DNA of 64,000 bases from Isoalcanivorax indicus (GTDB lineage Bacteria; Pseudomonadota; Gammaproteobacteria; Pseudomonadales; Alcanivoracaceae), in contig NZ_QGMP01000001.1 in NCBI RefSeq assembly GCF_003259185.1, forward strand, positions 1,302,001 through 1,366,000, written 5' to 3'. The notes beneath the pieces were generated by a model that ran no database searches, was not told the DNA's origin, and worked only from the letters and a program-made list of their open reading frames with translations. The position numbers and the translations under genes are program-made. This document shows, piece by piece, positions 37,061 through 44,852 of this stretch (position 1 is the first letter of the stretch; each line of letters starts with the position of its first letter).

Positions 37061-40000
37061 TCAGGTCAGTTGCGCCAGCAGGGCTTCCACCTCGCTGAAG
37101 CGTTCCTCTTCGGTGTCGGCATCCAGCACGAATTTCAGGGCGCTGGCCCCTTGCAGGGTATAGCGCCCGGGGGCCGACTGTACCAGTTTGACCAGCCGCA
37201 GCGGATCAATGGCGGTGCGCTCGGAAAACTCCAGGCGTCCGTTCTCGCGGCCGGCGTCGATGCGGGCGATGCCCAGAGCCTGGGCGCGCTGGCGCAGTGC
37301 GGTGACGCGAAACAGATTCTTCACCTGCCGGGGCAGCATACCAAAGCGGTCGATCATTTCGACCCTCAGTTCGTCCAGTTGTTCGCTATCGCGGCAACTG
37401 GCAATGCGTTTGTACAGGCCGAGACGGGTCAGGACATCCGGCAGATAGTCGTCCGGAATCAGTGCCGGGACGCGCAGATTGACCTCCGGCCCGCCGGACA
37501 GCGGCTTTTCGGTGTCCGGCTGCTCACCCCGGCGCAGGGCCGCCACGGCCTGCTCCAGCATGTCCATGTAGAGGGAGAAGCCGATGGATTCGATATGCCC
37601 GTGCTGTTCCTCACCCAGCAGCTCCCCGGCGCCGCGGATCTCCAGATCATGGCTGGCCAGGGTAAAGCCGGCGCCCAGGTCCGAGGCCTGCTCGATGGCC
37701 TCCAGACGCTTCAGGGCGTCTTTGGTCATGGCCTTGGGATGCGGTGTCAGCAGGAACGCGTAGGCCTGGTGGTGGGAGCGCCCGACCCGGCCGCGCAACT
37801 GATGCAGCTGCGCCAGGCCGAACTTGTCCGCTCGCTCGATGATGATGGTATTGGCCGAGGGCACATCGATACCCGTCTCGATGATGGTGGTCGACAGCAG
37901 CACGTTGAAGCGCCGGTGGTAGAAATCCGACATCACCTGTTCCAGCTCGCGCTCGCGCATCTGTCCGTGGGCGATGCCGATGCGGGCATCCGGCACCAGC
38001 TCACGCAGTTCCTCTGCCGCCCGGGCCATGGTGTCGATATCGTTGTGCAGGAAGTAGACCTGGCCGCCGCGCAACAACTCACGCAGCAGGGCCTCCTTGA
38101 TGACCACCGGATTCTTCTGTTGCACGAAGGTCTTCACCGACAGGCGCTTGCTGGGCGGGGTGGCGATAATCGAGATATCGCGCATGCCCGACATCGCCAT
38201 GTTCAGCGTGCGCGGGATCGGGGTCGCGGTCAGGGTCAGGATGTCGGCCTCGGCCCGCAGGGCTTTCAGGCGTTCCTTGTGGCGTACCCCGAAGCGGTGC
38301 TCTTCATCGACAATCACCAGGCCGATATCGCGGAAGGCCACCGATTCCTGCAACAGCTGATGGGTGCCGACCACGATATCCACCTTGCCCTCGGCGAGAC
38401 GCGCCAGCACGTCGGTGCGCTCCTTCTGGCTGCGGAACCGGCTCAGCACTTCGATGCTGATGGGCCAGTCGGCAAAGCGGTCGCTGAAGGATTCGTAATG
38501 CTGCTGGGCGAGCAGGGTGGTGGGCACCAGGATCGCCACCTGCGTGTTGTTCTGCACGGCGACAAAGGCGGCGCGCATGGCCACCTCGGTTTTGCCGAAG
38601 CCCACGTCGCCGCACACCAGCCGGTCCATCGGGCGGTCGGCCTGCAGATCACGCAGCACGGCGTCGATGGCCGCCTGCTGGTCGGCGGTCTCCTCGAACG
38701 GGAAGCCGCTGGCGAAGCGGGTGTAGTCGTCTTCGGGCAGGGTAAAGGCGCGGCCCTTGCGGGCCTCGCGGCGGGCATAGGTATTCAGCAACTCAGCCGC
38801 CACGTCGTGAATCTTCTCGGCCGCTTTCTGGCGCGCCTTGCTCCACTGGTCGGACCCCAATCGTGTCAGCGGGGCATGGTCGGGATCACCGGCGCCATAG
38901 CGGCTGATCAGATGCAGGCTGGATACCGGCAGATAGATCTTGTCGCCGCCCGCATATTCCAGCAGCAGGAATTCGTGCGCCTGGCCTTCCACGGTCATGT
39001 GGGTCAGGCCCTGATAGCGGCCGACACCATGATCGATATGCACCACGGGCGTACCAGGCACCAGCTCGCCCAGGGACCGGAACGCCTGGTCGGCAGAGGT
39101 TTCCTGGCCACTGCGCCGGCGTCGGCGCTGCATGATGCGTTCGCCATACAGCTGGCTTTCGGCAATCACCAGCGCATGGGCCTGCGGCGCCCAGAAGCCC
39201 TTGTCCAGCTCGCCCACGGTCAGGCTCCAGCTGGCCGCTGTGGGCTGCCAGTGGTTCCAGCCGTCGATCACCGCCGGTTGTATGCCCTGTTTCTGCATCA
39301 GTTCCAGCAGCGCTTCACGGCGCCCGGGGGTTTCCGCGCAGACGAGAATGCGCAGGCCCGGGTGTTCCTCTGGCAGTGCCGCCAGGCTGGCGAAGGGGTT
39401 GGCGTTGCGGTCCGTGACCACCGGCGGCGGGGTGAAGTCGAAGGTGATGGCCTTGTCGTCGGGCGTGGCGTCGGGGGGCAGTTGCCGTGCCCGGGGATGC
39501 ACACGCAATTGCTGGTTCAGTTCATTGACCGGCAAAAACAGTTCGGCGGGCGACAGGATCGGTCGGCGGATATCGTGGCGGCGGTCTTCATGCCGCGCAG
39601 TGACTTCATCCCAGAAATGCGCAGCGGCTTGTTCGCAGCCCGCCAGTTCGACCAGCCGCACATCGCCGGGCAGGTAATCGAACAGCGTCGCCATCTGTTC
39701 AAAGAACAGCGGCAGGTAGTATTCCAGGCCCGGGCTGGCAATGCCCTCGGACACATCCCGGTAAAGACTGCACTGGCGATGATCCACATCAAAGCGTTCG
39801 CGGAAGCGATTGCGAAAACGGGCGATGCCCTCGCTGCTCAACGGGTATTCCGCTGCGGGCAGCAGAGTGATGGCCTGCACCTGGTCCACAGAACGCTGCG
39901 TTTCCGGATCGAACAGCCGCAGTGACTCGATATCGTCGTCGAACAGCTCGATACGGAACGGCTGATCGGCGCCCATGGGGAAGATGTCCATGATGGCGCC

Positions 40001-40516
40001 GCGCACGGCAAACTCGCCGTGATCGAAGACGCTGTCCCGCTGCCGGTAGCCACAGGCCGCCAACCGGGAGCGGGTGGCTTCCATGTCGAAGCGCTCGCCG
40101 ACCTTGAGCAGAAAACTGTTGCCGCTGATCTGCACGCGGGGGGCCAGCCGTTGCATCACGGTGCTGACCGGTGCAATCAGCACTCCCTGGTGGCTATCGG
40201 GGAGCTTGTGCAGCACCTGAACCCGTTCGCTGATGATGTCCTGGTGCGGTGAGAACAGGTCGTAGGGCAGGGTTTCCCAGTCGGGGAACAGCAATACCGG
40301 CGTGTCACTGCCCGCCAGGTAAAAGGTCAGGCTGTCATGCAACTGCTGGGCGGTGCTGCTGTCGGGCGTCATCACCAGCAGCAGGTGCCCGGCGTCGCGT
40401 GCCAGTTCGGCCAGGGTCACGGCCAGGCTGCCGCTGTCCAGGCCCTGCCAGAGGCGGAAGTGGTCGTTGCCGGTGGGGAAGACGGGCGTGCCCGGGAGTA
40501 ACGTCATCGGGGTCAT
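37061..40516 (-). CDS. mfd: Transcription-repair coupling factor Mfd
   Basis: A DNA translocase that displaces stalled RNA polymerase and recruits UvrA. About 1151 residues, matching E. coli (1148). The UvrB-homology region is N-terminal. The RNA-polymerase-interacting domain follows near residues 470-550 (PGTPVVHIDHGVGRYQGL). The RecG-like helicase motor has Walker A GDVGFGKTEVAMRAAF, DEEH box VDEEHRFGV, and motif VI-type QLRGRVGRS. The C-terminal TRCF domain ends the protein. Start chosen at 40516; ATGs at 40507 and 40561 are in frame. Divergent from the ATP-grasp gene. Confidence 0.96.
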   Translation of the reverse strand: MTPMTLLPGTPVFPTGNDHFRLWQGLDSGSLAVTLAELARDAGHLLLVMTPDSSTAQQLHDSLTFYLAGSDTPVLLFPDWETLPYDLFSPHQDIISERVQVLHKLPDSHQGVLIAPVSTVMQRLAPRVQISGNSFLLKVGERFDMEATRSRLAACGYRQRDSVFDHGEFAVRGAIMDIFPMGADQPFRIELFDDDIESLRLFDPETQRSVDQVQAITLLPAAEYPLSSEGIARFRNRFRERFDVDHRQCSLYRDVSEGIASPGLEYYLPLFFEQMATLFDYLPGDVRLVELAGCEQAAAHFWDEVTARHEDRRHDIRRPILSPAELFLPVNELNQQLRVHPRARQLPPDATPDDKAITFDFTPPPVVTDRNANPFASLAALPEEHPGLRILVCAETPGRREALLELMQKQGIQPAVIDGWNHWQPTAASWSLTVGELDKGFWAPQAHALVIAESQLYGERIMQRRRRRSGQETSADQAFRSLGELVPGTPVVHIDHGVGRYQGLTHMTVEGQAHEFLLLEYAGGDKIYLPVSSLHLISRYGAGDPDHAPLTRLGSDQWSKARQKAAEKIHDVAAELLNTYARREARKGRAFTLPEDDYTRFASGFPFEETADQQAAIDAVLRDLQADRPMDRLVCGDVGFGKTEVAMRAAFVAVQNNTQVAILVPTTLLAQQHYESFSDRFADWPISIEVLSRFRSQKERTDVLARLAEGKVDIVVGTHQLLQESVAFRDIGLVIVDEEHRFGVRHKERLKALRAEADILTLTATPIPRTLNMAMSGMRDISIIATPPSKRLSVKTFVQQKNPVVIKEALLRELLRGGQVYFLHNDIDTMARAAEELRELVPDARIGIAHGQMRERELEQVMSDFYHRRFNVLLSTTIIETGIDVPSANTIIIERADKFGLAQLHQLRGRVGRSHHQAYAFLLTPHPKAMTKDALKRLEAIEQASDLGAGFTLASHDLEIRGAGELLGEEQHGHIESIGFSLYMDMLEQAVAALRRGEQPDTEKPLSGGPEVNLRVPALIPDDYLPDVLTRLGLYKRIASCRDSEQLDELRVEMIDRFGMLPRQVKNLFRVTALRQRAQALGIARIDAGRENGRLEFSERTAIDPLRLVKLVQSAPGRYTLQGASALKFVLDADTEEERFSEVEALLAQLT

Positions 40517-40701
40517 CGTTGCTGGTCTGACGGGGCGCGCATTGTAACGGATATTCATCATGAAATCGCCAGTGACCGGCGCACCGGCGCGGGCTGAACG
40601 TGTGATGGCCGGCGGATTCGTGTAGGGTATTCAGGCTCTTGACGGCCTCGCCGGTCCTTCACGCTGGCGAGTCACGCACTGCCAACGAAAGGAGGCAGCC
40701 A

Positions 40702-41925
40702 ATGACGAAGAATCCGGACAAGGGCTATGTCGCACTACTGGGCTGGAGCCTGAACGCGGTAGAAGCTGCCGCATCGTTTGACCGCCGTTATGTGGTCGTC
40801 GCCCCCGACTGGGCCGAGGACTACTGCCGCGAGCACGATATCCCCTACGTTCCCTGGAATTTCGAACGGCTCAATGACCGTTCCATGGAAATCGCCCAGA
40901 CGCTGGCGGACATGGGCGTGGATGTGGCCATCCCGCTGTTCGAGGAAACGGTGGAATGGGCCGGTGCGATCAATTCCGTGCTGCTGGACAATCCACGTCT
41001 GTTGGGCCAGGCCATGCTGATGCGCGACAAGTCGCTGATGAAGCGCCGCGCCCAACTGGGTGGCATCCGCGTGGGCATCTTTGAAGAAGCCCATGATCGC
41101 GATGATGTGATGCGTTTTCTCAAGCGCGTCAACCAGACCCTGCTGAAGCTGGATGGTGATCCCAACGATCCGATTCATTTCAAGGCATTCGACAAGGCCG
41201 GTTGTCTGGGTCACCGGGTCATCCGCACGCCCGACGACGTGGACGCCATTCCCGACGAGGAATTTCCATCACTGATGGAGTCCCACCTGGATGGCTGGGA
41301 GTTCGCCGTTGAAGCCTGGATTCACGATGGCAAGATCCGCTTCCTGAATATTTCCGAGTATGTATCGCTCGGCTATTCGGTATTCGTACCGGCGTCGCCG
41401 GAACTGGAGCGTTATCGACCGCAGATTACCGAGCAGATCGAGAAGCTGGTGAAAACCTTCGATATCGAATTCGGTTTCATTCATCCGGAGTATTTTGTCA
41501 CCAGCGACAGCGAGATGTATTTCGGTGAAGTGGCCTACCGGCCGCCGGGCTTCAAGGTGTTCGAGTTGCTGGAACGGGTGTATGGCTTCAATGCCTATCA
41601 GGCGTTGATCCTGTCTTTCGATCCGAAAACCACGGAAGAGGAAATCAAGGCGTTTTTCCCGAAAGAAGTCGAGGACGCCAAGGGCTATGCGGGCTGTTTC
41701 GGTGTCTATCCCCGGCGCCGCGTTGTCAGTCGCCTGGAGATCCCGGAAGAAACCGAGGAGCATCCGTACTTCGAGTCGCATGAGCTGACGGCGCCGTTGC
41801 AGGAAACGGTTACCAAGCGCACCGCATTCGGCACCCACTGGGGTCTGATCTATTTTCGCGGTGATGAGGCCGACACGCTCAAGGCGTTGCTGGCTCATCA
41901 GGAGACCCTTGATTTCTATATGTGA
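40702..41925 (+). CDS. ATP-grasp domain protein (putative amide/peptide ligase)
   Basis: 407 residues. An N-terminal pre-ATP-grasp segment (YVALLGWSLNAVEAAASF) precedes the ATP-grasp core: Lys residues in LMRDKSLMKRRAQL and LLKLDGDPNDPIHFKAF, and the metal/ATP end block FGEVAYRPPG. In the usual E-x-N metal motif the Asn position is Ala, as I recall in several other ATP-grasp ligases. Members join a carboxylate to an amine or thiol using ATP through an acyl phosphate. Substrate unknown. Strong ribosome-binding site AAAGGAGG precedes the ATG. The next gene starts at its stop, so both should act together. Not found at this position in Pseudomonas as I remember it. Confidence 0.85.
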   Translation: MTKNPDKGYVALLGWSLNAVEAAASFDRRYVVVAPDWAEDYCREHDIPYVPWNFERLNDRSMEIAQTLADMGVDVAIPLFEETVEWAGAINSVLLDNPRLLGQAMLMRDKSLMKRRAQLGGIRVGIFEEAHDRDDVMRFLKRVNQTLLKLDGDPNDPIHFKAFDKAGCLGHRVIRTPDDVDAIPDEEFPSLMESHLDGWEFAVEAWIHDGKIRFLNISEYVSLGYSVFVPASPELERYRPQITEQIEKLVKTFDIEFGFIHPEYFVTSDSEMYFGEVAYRPPGFKVFELLERVYGFNAYQALILSFDPKTTEEEIKAFFPKEVEDAKGYAGCFGVYPRRRVVSRLEIPEETEEHPYFESHELTAPLQETVTKRTAFGTHWGLIYFRGDEADTLKALLAHQETLDFYM

Positions 41926-41948
41926 CGCCGCCTGTTAAGGTGAATTCT

Positions 41949-43961
41949 GTGACTGATCCGGATGATATCGCCGTGACAGAGAAGTTGGCTTTGCGTGTTG
42001 CGCGTTTTGATGAGGCGCTTGCCGCCATGGCGCGGGCCCCCGCCTTCGCCCGACCGGCCAAGGTGCCGCTGCTGCTGGATGCCGCCCGCCTTGTGCTGCA
42101 GGAAGAGGGTGGTTGTGCTGCGATTGCATCGCGGGCGCAGGCCTTCGAAGAGGCCGGTATATTTGCCGGTTCCGACTGGGCGACACCGCAGATACTGGTG
42201 CCGTCGCTCAGCCGTGGTGCCTTGCGCAGCGCCGATGCCGGGCTGGTGGTGATCGAATCACTCAGCCAGTTGCGGCTGCTGGCCGTGGCTCAGGGCTGGT
42301 TCCTGCATCCGCTGATGTCTTCCGAGCAGGCCCATCATTACCTGACCCAGGTGCTGGCACTGAATCTGGAGCTGCTGTTTTCCGCTCCCGGTGAAGCCGA
42401 GCGTGCCCAGCAGGGGCGTCTGGCCAGGGTGCCGCGCAACCTGTTCCGTTATCTCGCTGAAACCATCGGCTATGAGCACGTCATTGATCAACTGATTGAT
42501 GAGATCTGGCGTATTCTCAAGCAGCGCCCGATTCAGGTGGACAGCGTCAAGGACATGATCACCCAGATTGCGGTGTGCCGCGCGCGGCGAGATATTCACT
42601 GGGGCAGTGCCGGGCAGGGCGCCGACCGGCTGGTGAGCAGTCTGTACGGGCCGACACAGGCCACCCGCGAGGACCCGGGTCTGGATGAGTATCAGCGCCG
42701 TCTGGACAGGATGGACGCCCCTGCGCTGCAGTATGAAGCGTCCGGTTTTGCCCGCGCCATGCACGATACCGGGTTGGTGTCGCCCTACCATGCGGTCATA
42801 TTGCGTCACCTGCTGGGGCAGGGCGATCATCTGCTGGTCGAGTGTCTGGGTCTGTCCTCCACGGGGCGCGACTGCTTGCTGTGTTACAGCGAACTGGTGC
42901 ACGCACTGATCCGGTCTGCGGTGTTCCCGGGCACGGCGCAGGCGGTATATGGCCTGGCGCTGATGCTGGAGCGCGGCATTCTCTACCAGCCCCCCATCGC
43001 GCCAGCACTGTGGCGGCAGCTCGGATTGCCATTGTGCGAGTCGGCCGCAGACCGCCTGCGTCACCGTACCGACGTGACCATTACCCCTGCCGCCCGACTG
43101 CTTGAGGGCGTGCTGTGCACGATGGGGTTGCCGCTGGGGATCGGCCAGGGCAACAACCCGACCTGCCAGTCGGCACGTGCCTTGTCCATGTGGGCGTTCA
43201 ATGATCCGGACTATCTGTTGCAGATGGTGGCCTGGGCGGCTCGCGACGATGAGATCGTCATGCATTTCGAAGGGCAGGCCATTTCTTCTCGCGACAGTGT
43301 CGGCGGCGTTGCCGCCGAGGCGCCGGTGGATCTGGACCCGGTGTCGCTGCTCGTTGTGCCGCACCTGGACCGGATCTATGCGGAAATGGGGCGCCGCTGT
43401 GCGGGTCGCGAAGGCGATCCGCACCGTTGGGTCAATCCCGAGTTTCACGGCTGGTGGTCCGGGCGCGGCTTCCGCATCAATGTGGATGTGGCCAGTGGCC
43501 TGCTGCACGAGCTGGAAGACTTCCTGCGGCACTTCTATGCCGCCTATCACCCGATGTACAACGGCAATCAGCCGTTGATTCATCCTCAGCCTGCGGGCAT
43601 TGCGGTGACCGACAGCGCCGCGCGATTCATCGGTTGGCATGCCATTACCCTGCTGCGGGTATCGCTGGACCCCTCGGGGGTCATGCGGGTGTATTTCTAT
43701 AACCCCAACAACGACAGTGGCCAGGACTGGGGGGATGGCCTGGTGGTCAGCACCTCGGGTTGTGGCGAGCAGTTCGGGGAGGCGTCCTTGCCCTTCGAGC
43801 AGTTCGCGTCGCGCCTGTACATCTTTCACTACGATCTGCTTGAGTATGGCGAACCCGCCCAGGTGTCCCAGGAAGAACTGGACCGGGTGATGGGCTATGT
43901 CCATCGCAGTTGGGGGCGCGAGCGTCTGGCCCAAAGGTGCTATGATGCGCGGCCTGTGTAG
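41949..43961 (+). CDS. Unrecognised protein with a papain-like Cys-His-Asn pattern
   Basis: About 670 residues; I know no named family. There is no signal peptide or membrane helix. The N-terminal ~380 residues are Leu/Ala/Arg-rich and probably helical. The C-terminal part holds GQGNNPTCQSARALSMW (Cys at 43164), then FIGWHAITLLRV (His at 43638) and FYNPNNDSGQDWGDG (Asn at 43701), in the order and style of papain-like (clan CA) cysteine hydrolases, where HA-V-x-L is followed by N-x-x-G..WG. An oxyanion Gln is not obvious. Start: GTG at 41949 with AAGGTG six bases upstream; a GTG at 41922 overlapping the ATP-grasp stop (679 residues) is the alternative. Enzyme activity is inference. Confidence 0.75.
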   Translation: MTDPDDIAVTEKLALRVARFDEALAAMARAPAFARPAKVPLLLDAARLVLQEEGGCAAIASRAQAFEEAGIFAGSDWATPQILVPSLSRGALRSADAGLVVIESLSQLRLLAVAQGWFLHPLMSSEQAHHYLTQVLALNLELLFSAPGEAERAQQGRLARVPRNLFRYLAETIGYEHVIDQLIDEIWRILKQRPIQVDSVKDMITQIAVCRARRDIHWGSAGQGADRLVSSLYGPTQATREDPGLDEYQRRLDRMDAPALQYEASGFARAMHDTGLVSPYHAVILRHLLGQGDHLLVECLGLSSTGRDCLLCYSELVHALIRSAVFPGTAQAVYGLALMLERGILYQPPIAPALWRQLGLPLCESAADRLRHRTDVTITPAARLLEGVLCTMGLPLGIGQGNNPTCQSARALSMWAFNDPDYLLQMVAWAARDDEIVMHFEGQAISSRDSVGGVAAEAPVDLDPVSLLVVPHLDRIYAEMGRRCAGREGDPHRWVNPEFHGWWSGRGFRINVDVASGLLHELEDFLRHFYAAYHPMYNGNQPLIHPQPAGIAVTDSAARFIGWHAITLLRVSLDPSGVMRVYFYNPNNDSGQDWGDGLVVSTSGCGEQFGEASLPFEQFASRLYIFHYDLLEYGEPAQVSQEELDRVMGYVHRSWGRERLAQRCYDARPV

Positions 43962-43976
43962 TCGCGCGAGAGCATT

Positions 43977-44852
43977 ATGAAAGACGTCGTCCGTGATCTG
44001 CTGGACGTCATCCGGCTGGAACAGCTGGAGACCAATCTGTTTCGTGGCCAGAGCCGCGATACCGGCCAGAAAAGCATCTTTGGCGGCCTGGTGGCGGGCC
44101 AGGCACTGATGGCCGCCAGTCGTACCGTGGACGCCGAGCGGCCGGTGCATTCCCTGCATGCCTACTTCATCCGCCCCGGTGATTTCTCCATCCCCATTGT
44201 TTACGACGTCGAGCGGGTGCGCGACGGCAAGAGCTTTACCACCCGTCGTGTCACCGCGATCCAGCATGGTCGCCCGATCTTCACTCTGGAAGCCTCGTTT
44301 CAGGTGGAGGAGGGCGGCGTGGAGCACCAGGCCGATATGCCGGCGGTGCCCGCCCCGGAGACCCTGCCGTCGGACCAGAGTCTGCGCGAGCAGTTTGCGC
44401 ACCGGATTCCGGAGCGCATGCGCGAGGCCTTTCTTGCCGAGCGCCCGGTGGAGTTCAGACCGATCAAGCCCGCCAACGGTTTCGAGGCTGAACCGCAGGA
44501 CCCGACACGCGAGACCTGGTTCCGGATTGCCGAACCGCTGGAGGTGGACACGGCCACGCACCGGGCGTTGCTGGCCTTCTGTTCGGATTTCGGCTTGCTG
44601 GGCACGGCCATGCTGCCGCACGGCATGAACTTCTTTCAGCCACACGTGCAGTCAGCCAGTATCGACCACGCCATGTGGTTCCATCGCCCCTTCCGGGTGG
44701 ACGAATGGCTGCTCTACAGCACCCAGAGCCCGTCGGCCTCCGGCGCCCGGGGGATGAATTTCGGCTATATCTATCGGCAGGACGGGGTGCTGGTGGCCAG
44801 CGTGGCCCAGGAAGGTCTGATGCGCCTGCGGCCGCAGGAACCGCGCAGCTGA
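43977..44852 (+). CDS. tesB: Acyl-CoA thioesterase II
   Basis: Hydrolyses medium- and long-chain acyl-CoA to free fatty acid and CoA. 291 residues, double hotdog fold. The first hotdog has IFGGLVAGQALMAASRTV and HSLHAYFIRPGD; the second has SIDHAMWFHRPFRVDEWLLY. The Asp-Thr/Ser-Gln network of E. coli TesB is compatible. 15 bp after the papain-like gene and 4 bp before the glycosylase gene, suggesting one operon, though the functions are not obviously linked. Confidence 0.95.
   Translation: MKDVVRDLLDVIRLEQLETNLFRGQSRDTGQKSIFGGLVAGQALMAASRTVDAERPVHSLHAYFIRPGDFSIPIVYDVERVRDGKSFTTRRVTAIQHGRPIFTLEASFQVEEGGVEHQADMPAVPAPETLPSDQSLREQFAHRIPERMREAFLAERPVEFRPIKPANGFEAEPQDPTRETWFRIAEPLEVDTATHRALLAFCSDFGLLGTAMLPHGMNFFQPHVQSASIDHAMWFHRPFRVDEWLLYSTQSPSASGARGMNFGYIYRQDGVLVASVAQEGLMRLRPQEPRS

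Follow-up and report, generated by a model that had tools for sequence, protein, structure and literature searches.

Two adjacent genes in a 64,000-nucleotide stretch of the Isoalcanivorax indicus genome (contig NZ_QGMP01000001.1, positions 1,302,001 to 1,366,000 of the forward strand; this whole stretch is referred to below as the window) form a pair whose members strictly co-occur in the genomes sampled. The first gene encodes an ATP-grasp carboxylate-amine ligase-like protein (hereafter the ligase) and the second a protein of about 670 residues (the large protein). The pair is present or absent as a unit at one site, its two products have diverged in parallel, and both proteins carry invariant candidate active-site residues. 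The locus had been picked out in an earlier reading of the DNA letters (the original prediction) as a candidate for an undescribed, coupled system of an ATP-grasp enzyme and a papain-like hydrolase, encoded by two long co-directional open reading frames (ORFs). The ORF list confirmed the two reading frames, and the core of the idea survives in the co-occurrence of the genes, while its papain part is not proven and the translational link read from an ATGTGA junction is unsupported.

Co-occurrence and parallel divergence of the two genes

We searched three overlapping samples of genomes for both genes, accepting the large protein at E <= 1e-3 and the ligase at E <= 1e-30, and obtained identical positives for the two in each sample, namely 19 of 57 near relatives, 13 of 369 genomes of the class and 11 of 398 of the phylum. 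The samples together contained 38 distinct positive genomes, which are related and not independent events, and none of them held just one of the two genes. Even where the genes lie about 55 kb apart, as in genome G343, both were present. Within genera the pair is patchy (for example, 4 of 7 genomes in the genus of the window were positive), with both genes together each time. According to the original prediction, a wide occurrence of the large protein without the ATP-grasp gene beside it would have spoken against a coupled system; the positives were the same for both genes among the 57, 369 and 398 genomes, although a genome may have additional large genes at a distance from a ligase gene. The class and phylum searches scored the best three (large protein) or four to five (ligase) candidates per genome, making the copy numbers lower bounds.

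At the site occupied in the window, the pair comes and goes as a unit. The mfd gene was searched for in 12 genomes, and eight regions were examined. All six pair-lacking genomes among these (G002, G004, G006, G007, G013 and G018) have an empty site, in which mfd adjoins the thioesterase gene; a GAPDH gene comes after the latter, with a UDG-like gene between in five of the six. G001 and G003 are like the window in having the pair at this site, flanked by mfd and the thioesterase gene. Four genomes were left out of the comparison of regions: G015, which lacks the pair; G005, in which a piece of mfd stands just before the ligase gene on the same contig; and G008 and G025, in which the pair and mfd are on different contigs.

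A scan of the genome collection confirmed at least 579 relatives of the large protein, the best 80 of which formed the locus set. Their hosts are mainly Halomonadaceae, with Alcanivorax, Marinobacter, Ectothiorhodospiraceae, Guyparkeria and Methylonatrum; the family assignment and a mostly marine or halophilic habitat are our assumptions from the organism names. In 74 of the 80 the large gene is preceded by a ligase gene of the same orientation, and the remaining six have no ligase gene beside the large gene. Four arrangements occur, ligase-large, large-ligase (L174 and L189), divergent (for example, L011 to L016, L179 and L183) and convergent (L018, L186 and L188); orientation varies between lineages and adjacency holds. 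Over 48 dereplicated loci, the pairwise distances of the two proteins were correlated (r = 0.87), with none of 2000 permutations giving a value as high; this correlation was calculated from plain distances, not trees, and is partly one of shared descent. The mean distance between ligases (0.150) is half that between large proteins (0.303).

For the six loci without a neighbouring ligase gene (L035, L060, L065, L070, L072 and L089), tblastn searches recovered short remnants of the ligase end before the large gene that were clear in L072, L065 and L070 and weak in L035 and L060, with nothing convincing in L089. A full-length ligase of a more distant type is encoded elsewhere in all six genomes. 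Four of them (G800 to G803) have one large gene and one full-length ligase gene of the distant type, not adjoining, and in G799 and G804 the distant-type ligase gene adjoins a second large gene. Among the cases seen, the neighbouring ligase has been lost solely where another copy exists. Ligases of this second type stand away from any large gene in L172, near an LrgB-like gene, and in L173, near an NYN-domain gene. In-frame stops in several homologues were considered as signs of decay and rejected as such: when the ORFs were re-read in the first 104 loci, a single alignment contained a stop (L016), past the natural end.

Candidate active sites and a proposed two-enzyme module

The ATP-grasp core that the original prediction had seen in the first gene was recovered as a weak match to PF13535 (ATP-grasp_4; E = 2.4e-4, 21.2 bits), and one ligase homologue matches the same family at E = 6.5e-4. 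A profile of 14 ligase homologues compared with the PDB retrieved 4dim, 4wd3 and 3vot at E-values of 0.003-0.006; 4wd3 and 3vot are L-amino acid ligases and are among the closest profile relatives of the ligase. Four residues, K161, E263, E276 and R280, are identical in all 113 distinct homologous rows with at least 390 aligned residues, an alignment in which 173 of the 407 positions never vary. The last three align with the C-terminal core of 4wd3. We take K161 to be the lysine of the nucleotide site, E263 and E276 to be acidic metal ligands, and R280 to be the arginine that follows them.

For the large protein, the original prediction had found that no named family fits, and searches of Pfam, NCBIfam and PADLOC agreed with this. 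The window copy had no Pfam match at E <= 10, and 20 of its homologues gave scattered weak Pfam matches, the best at E = 0.011 in one member. NCBIfam returned one weak match to the large protein, at 15.5 bits against a cut-off of 489, which we took as chance, and PADLOC-DB returned no family for either protein of the pair. Sequence searches of the PDB with the large protein, its profile and both of its halves reached a best E-value of 0.038, and none of the matches was meaningful.

The papain-like Cys/His/Asn pattern of the original prediction fared better in the alignment than in profile comparison. Residues Q409, C415, H573, N594 and N596 (numbered throughout from GTG 41922) are identical in all 123 distinct rows of large proteins, down to 40% identity; these rows were retained from 174 matched after duplicates and rows with fewer than 550 aligned residues had been dropped. 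Q409 stands exactly six residues before C415, and in papain Gln19 stands six residues before Cys25. An AlphaFold2 model of the large protein, built from 81 sequences, places C415 near the start of a helix (413-427), H573 in a strand (569-582) and N594 right after a further strand (588-593), so that the predicted elements follow one another in the order of papain, behind a long all-helical region. When this model was compared with the PDB using Foldseek, the top matches among the first 50 of 456 rows were mostly helical-repeat proteins, and staphopains, which are papain-type peptidases, appeared at ranks 32 and 43 (E = 0.81 and 0.97). Among the first 50 of 286 rows from a viral library, papain-type peptidases ranked 8 and 43 (E = 0.38 and 1.4), and a phage 'peptidoglycan binding-like' protein ranked second (probability 0.94, E = 0.11). 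Based on the residue order, the glutamine six positions before the cysteine, the predicted secondary structure and these weak fold matches, it is likely, although not proven, that the large protein has a papain fold with a putative Gln-Cys-His-Asn set in papain order.

We propose a self-contained two-enzyme module, probably located in the cytosol, in which the ligase would make, and the large protein would cleave or transfer, an amide on a shared target, a reading to which we give about an even chance. With ATP, the ATP-grasp protein would activate a carboxylate for coupling to an amine, forming an amide on a substrate that all hosts contain. The helical region of the large protein may bind the substrate, and the papain-fold thiol hydrolase or transferase (Cys415-His573-Asn594, with Gln409 in the oxyanion hole) would cleave or transfer an amide of that kind. 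The opposed actions of the two enzymes would set the level of one modification.

Several observations weigh against such a module. The PF13535 match of the ligase is below the curated cut-off of 27 bits, and the AlphaFold2 model of the ligase, made from the window copy and 42 loci with a ligase, was poor (predicted local distance difference test score, pLDDT, 45.7), probably because the alignment is too uniform. The model of the large protein has a mean pLDDT of 66, falling below 50 for residues 381-514; since these include Cys415, the model leaves the meeting of cysteine and histidine undemonstrated. In the first 50 rows from the PDB and from the viral library, Foldseek gave no match to it at E <= 0.001. 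The C-terminal region did not match the transglutaminase core profile (18 of 20 loci), nor two single C1-type peptidase sequences in profile comparison; these were the clan CA members compared, and the helical half, used as a control, likewise did not match the transglutaminase profile. Finally, some genomes hold more large genes than ligase genes, for example G054 with five full copies and a fragment against two ligases, and because of this surplus the large protein may have further roles.

The absence of a significant fold or profile match would also be expected if the large protein were not a papain-fold enzyme but a scaffold, or an enzyme of some other fold, working with its ATP-grasp partner, its Cys/His/Asn residues being coincidental or involved in binding a metal or ligand. 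Many further residues of the large protein are invariant too (H543, N547, Q556, E616, E620 and H636), and the pattern itself carries no calculated chance level. We nevertheless consider this alternative quite improbable, given the exact spacing of Q409 and C415, the cysteine near a predicted helix start, the histidine in a strand and the asparagine after the next strand, all of them invariant, together with the weak papain-type matches in two Foldseek libraries.

The large-gene paralogues of G054 that are represented in the alignment keep the Gln/Cys/His/Asn set. Extra copies in G054 (L181:10035-13841) and G578 (L180:10347-12868), which belong to one genus, have no ligase of the family within about 8 kb and sit with a GCS2-like protein and an AstE/AspA-like protein. 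The GCS2-like copy tested matched its Pfam family at E = 4.8e-5 and 23.3 bits against a cut-off of 21, with no single stretch passing, and the NCBIfam matches of both GCS2-like copies were far below cut-off; the AstE/AspA-like copy tested gave E = 3.8e-5, just under the cut-off. Judged from these matches, the neighbours of the extra copies would perhaps again be a ligase and a hydrolase. A metallo-beta-lactamase-fold protein is encoded in between in L181.

Gene starts, neighbouring genes and alternative functions

The features of the locus are collected in Table 1. The strong ribosome-binding site claimed for the first gene was found as AAAGGAGG; the reading frame of the ligase is open from an upstream TTG at 40639, and ATG 40702 is the start that follows this site. 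The sequence ATGTGA, at which the original prediction had joined the two genes in a translational link, is present at 41920-41925, but GTG 41922 has no Shine-Dalgarno sequence. We regard GTG 41949, 23 nt past the ligase stop, as the likelier start of the large gene, because it is preceded by an AAGG that is kept in relatives; L025 shares the surrounding stretch AAGGTGAATnnTGTGACnGAT, which in L026 is little changed. Translational coupling across these 23 nt may occur in this strain; it is not a property of the system, the two genes being usually spaced apart in relatives and in some divergent or convergent. Promoter and terminator scans gave counts close to the shuffle level (0 against 0.8 and 3 against 2.7, respectively). 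The ligase gene has a guanine plus cytosine (GC) content of 57% and a third-position GC of 0.72, compared with 0.81-0.83 at the third position in the flanking genes. A lower GC of this kind would fit either acquisition of the gene or strong constraint on its protein.

Table 1. Positions in the window of the two genes, their start signals, candidate active-site codons and flanking genes
Feature	Coordinates	Strand	Basis
Shine-Dalgarno sequence of the ATP-grasp gene, AAAGGAGG	40688..40695	+	Sequence, 6 nt 5' of ATG 40702
ATP-grasp carboxylate-amine ligase-like protein, 407 aa	40702..41925	+	ORF, weak PF13535 match, invariant residues
Likely Shine-Dalgarno sequence of the second gene, AAGG	41937..41940	+	Kept in the close relatives L025 and, as AGGG, L026
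Large partner protein, 670 aa from GTG 41949 (679 aa from GTG 41922)	41949..43961	+	
N-terminal all-helical region of the large protein, about residues 20-384, perhaps solenoid-like	41979..43073	+	Model; weak Foldseek matches to helical-repeat proteins
C-terminal region of the large protein, about residues 385-668, with papain-like residue set	43074..43925	+	Alignment, model
Gln409 codon, putative oxyanion-hole glutamine	43146..43148	+	Identical in 123/123
Cys415 codon, putative nucleophile near the start of helix 413-427	43164..43166	+	Identical in 123/123; helix from model, pLDDT <50 there
His573 codon, putative base, in strand 569-582	43638..43640	+	Identical in 123/123; model
Asn594 codon, putative third residue, directly after strand 588-593	43701..43703	+	Identical in 123/123; model
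mfd (TRCF), left flank of the cassette, outside the system	37061..40561	-	Empty sites
Acyl-CoA thioesterase (tesB-like), right flank, outside the system	43977..44852	+	Empty sites

Among ORFs of at least 90 aa in the window and the 80 loci, no third gene was common to the pair across families, the neighbours varying by family, and no transporter, precursor peptide or biosynthetic gene was seen with it. Because no such gene accompanies the pair, we lean to a target that is macromolecular or otherwise housekeeping. In the window and the 80 loci taken together, a TlyA-like rRNA methyltransferase gene is nearby in 60 of 81 cases and an mscK-like mechanosensitive channel gene in 55 of 81, many of these being Halomonadaceae loci, with one member of each gene identified; this neighbourhood is mainly the synteny of one lineage. 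Many of the loci L028 to L104 have the TlyA-like gene on the downstream side of the pair, along with the mscK-like gene, which is convergent.

A mechanosensitive channel gene near the pair would suit a biosynthetic function, in which a dipeptide or an amide of an amino acid would be made by the ligase, with a transamidation or maturation step left to the thiol enzyme; the end product would be a small metabolite and might serve as a compatible solute. In phytochelatin synthase a papain fold carries out transpeptidation, L-amino acid ligases are among the closest profile relatives of the ligase, and the hosts are presumably mostly marine or halophilic. However, the 80 loci are the most similar of at least 579, so that kinship accounts for part of the habitat bias, and the mscK neighbourhood is mainly confined to a single lineage. 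The lack of biosynthetic, transport or amino-acid genes with the pair across families also argues against this function, as does the helical region of about 365 residues, which we judge unusual for a small-molecule amidase. We consider biosynthesis possible but doubtful.

The patchiness of the pair within genera and its clean presence or absence as a unit are also what might be seen with a conflict module, either toxin-antitoxin-like or in anti-phage defence, with one partner counteracting the other. This is the least likely of the explanations that we considered, and a very improbable one. No PADLOC model matched either protein. A set of 50,697 phage records contained no relative of the large protein, and viral contigs yielded no confirmed relative of the ligase or of the large protein's C-terminal region. 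A plasmid collection contained one record for the large protein, on a replicon of 1.8 Mb. Ligases in one alignment set are 75-92% identical to the window copy, in contrast to the fast divergence expected of conflict systems, and the neighbours in the window are housekeeping genes.

Relation to known systems

RimK/RimB and RloC/RloA resemble the pair in that a cytosolic ATP-grasp protein is encoded beside a protease (PMC12239564). According to the same paper, RimB binds and regulates the glutamate ligase RimK, and in the Rlo system of Pseudomonas mutations in rloB or in rloC, the ATP-grasp gene, rescue the defects of a strain that has lost all three proteases, so that an ATP-grasp gene and proteases of the same locus can oppose each other. 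The proteases of the RimB/RloA type are described there as retropepsin-like aspartic enzymes, RloA having a signal peptide, whereas the large protein combines a Cys/His/Asn set with a long helical region. A third gene, rloB, belongs to the rlo operon, whereas the pair consists of two. Neither the ligase nor the large protein had a RimK-type or retropepsin-like match in Pfam or NCBIfam, and membership of either system was rejected.

The original prediction had drawn a parallel with GspSA (glutathionylspermidine synthetase/amidase), in which an ATP-grasp type synthetase and a papain-like (CHAP) cysteine amidase, fused in one protein, act on the same amide. This parallel holds at most as an analogy, and homology is unsupported: the two activities would here be encoded by separate genes, and neither CHAP nor GSP_synth was among the Pfam matches of the two window proteins or of the 20 large-protein homologues, on which grounds membership was rejected. 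A survey of papain-like families places glutathionylspermidine synthetase with CHAP, and in the parts of it consulted there was no family that could be matched to the large protein (PMC10318531).

L-amino acid ligases of the ATP-grasp_4 type (4wd3 and 3vot) share with the ligase the C-terminal core around E263, E276 and R280, as aligned to 4wd3, although the profile E-values are 0.005-0.006. To our knowledge, these enzymes have no large-protein partner of the kind found here. Graspetide loci, which make ribosomally synthesized and post-translationally modified peptides (RiPPs), contain an ATP-grasp enzyme and at times a C39 cysteine peptidase/transporter (PMC8939145). The pair differs from these in being accompanied by no precursor peptide or transporter that we could see. 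With about 140 nt before the pair and 15 nt after it, there is no room for a precursor gene in or beside the window copy, and there is no conserved third gene; outside the window this check covered ORFs of at least 90 aa and hence no short peptides. Membership of a graspetide cluster was rejected.

A more specific form of the module would be a bacterial writer and eraser, in which one conserved cellular protein would gain an amino acid or a peptide through the ligase and lose it again through the helical papain-type enzyme; we regard this version as unlikely. It would have a counterpart in logic in eukaryotes, where tubulin tyrosine ligase, an ATP-grasp enzyme, adds the terminal tyrosine of alpha-tubulin and vasohibin removes it, and the equally unlikely bacterial equivalent would be built on a family absent from the libraries searched. 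Vasohibin is described as a transglutaminase-like cysteine protease that works with SVBP, and a Cys-His-Ser triad is given for vasohibins. The tubulin enzymes differ from the pair in being eukaryotic and in belonging to other families.

Searches of the open literature, judged by the titles and beginnings of abstracts that they listed, yielded no description of the pair; the amidoligase survey of Iyer and colleagues (2009) was outside this search and may list it. A ligase together with a hydrolase is known as a kind of system, and the novelty lies in the families involved, in the strictness of the two-gene unit and in a partner that is helical and putatively papain-like. A conserved protein of about 670 residues belonging to no Pfam or NCBIfam family is tied, with no exception in the sampled genomes, to an unusually conserved ligase. 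The strict linkage of the two genes, together with their clean presence or absence as a unit, makes their function directly testable by genetics, and the pair could reveal an unrecorded modification of a protein or metabolite and a new family of thiol enzymes.

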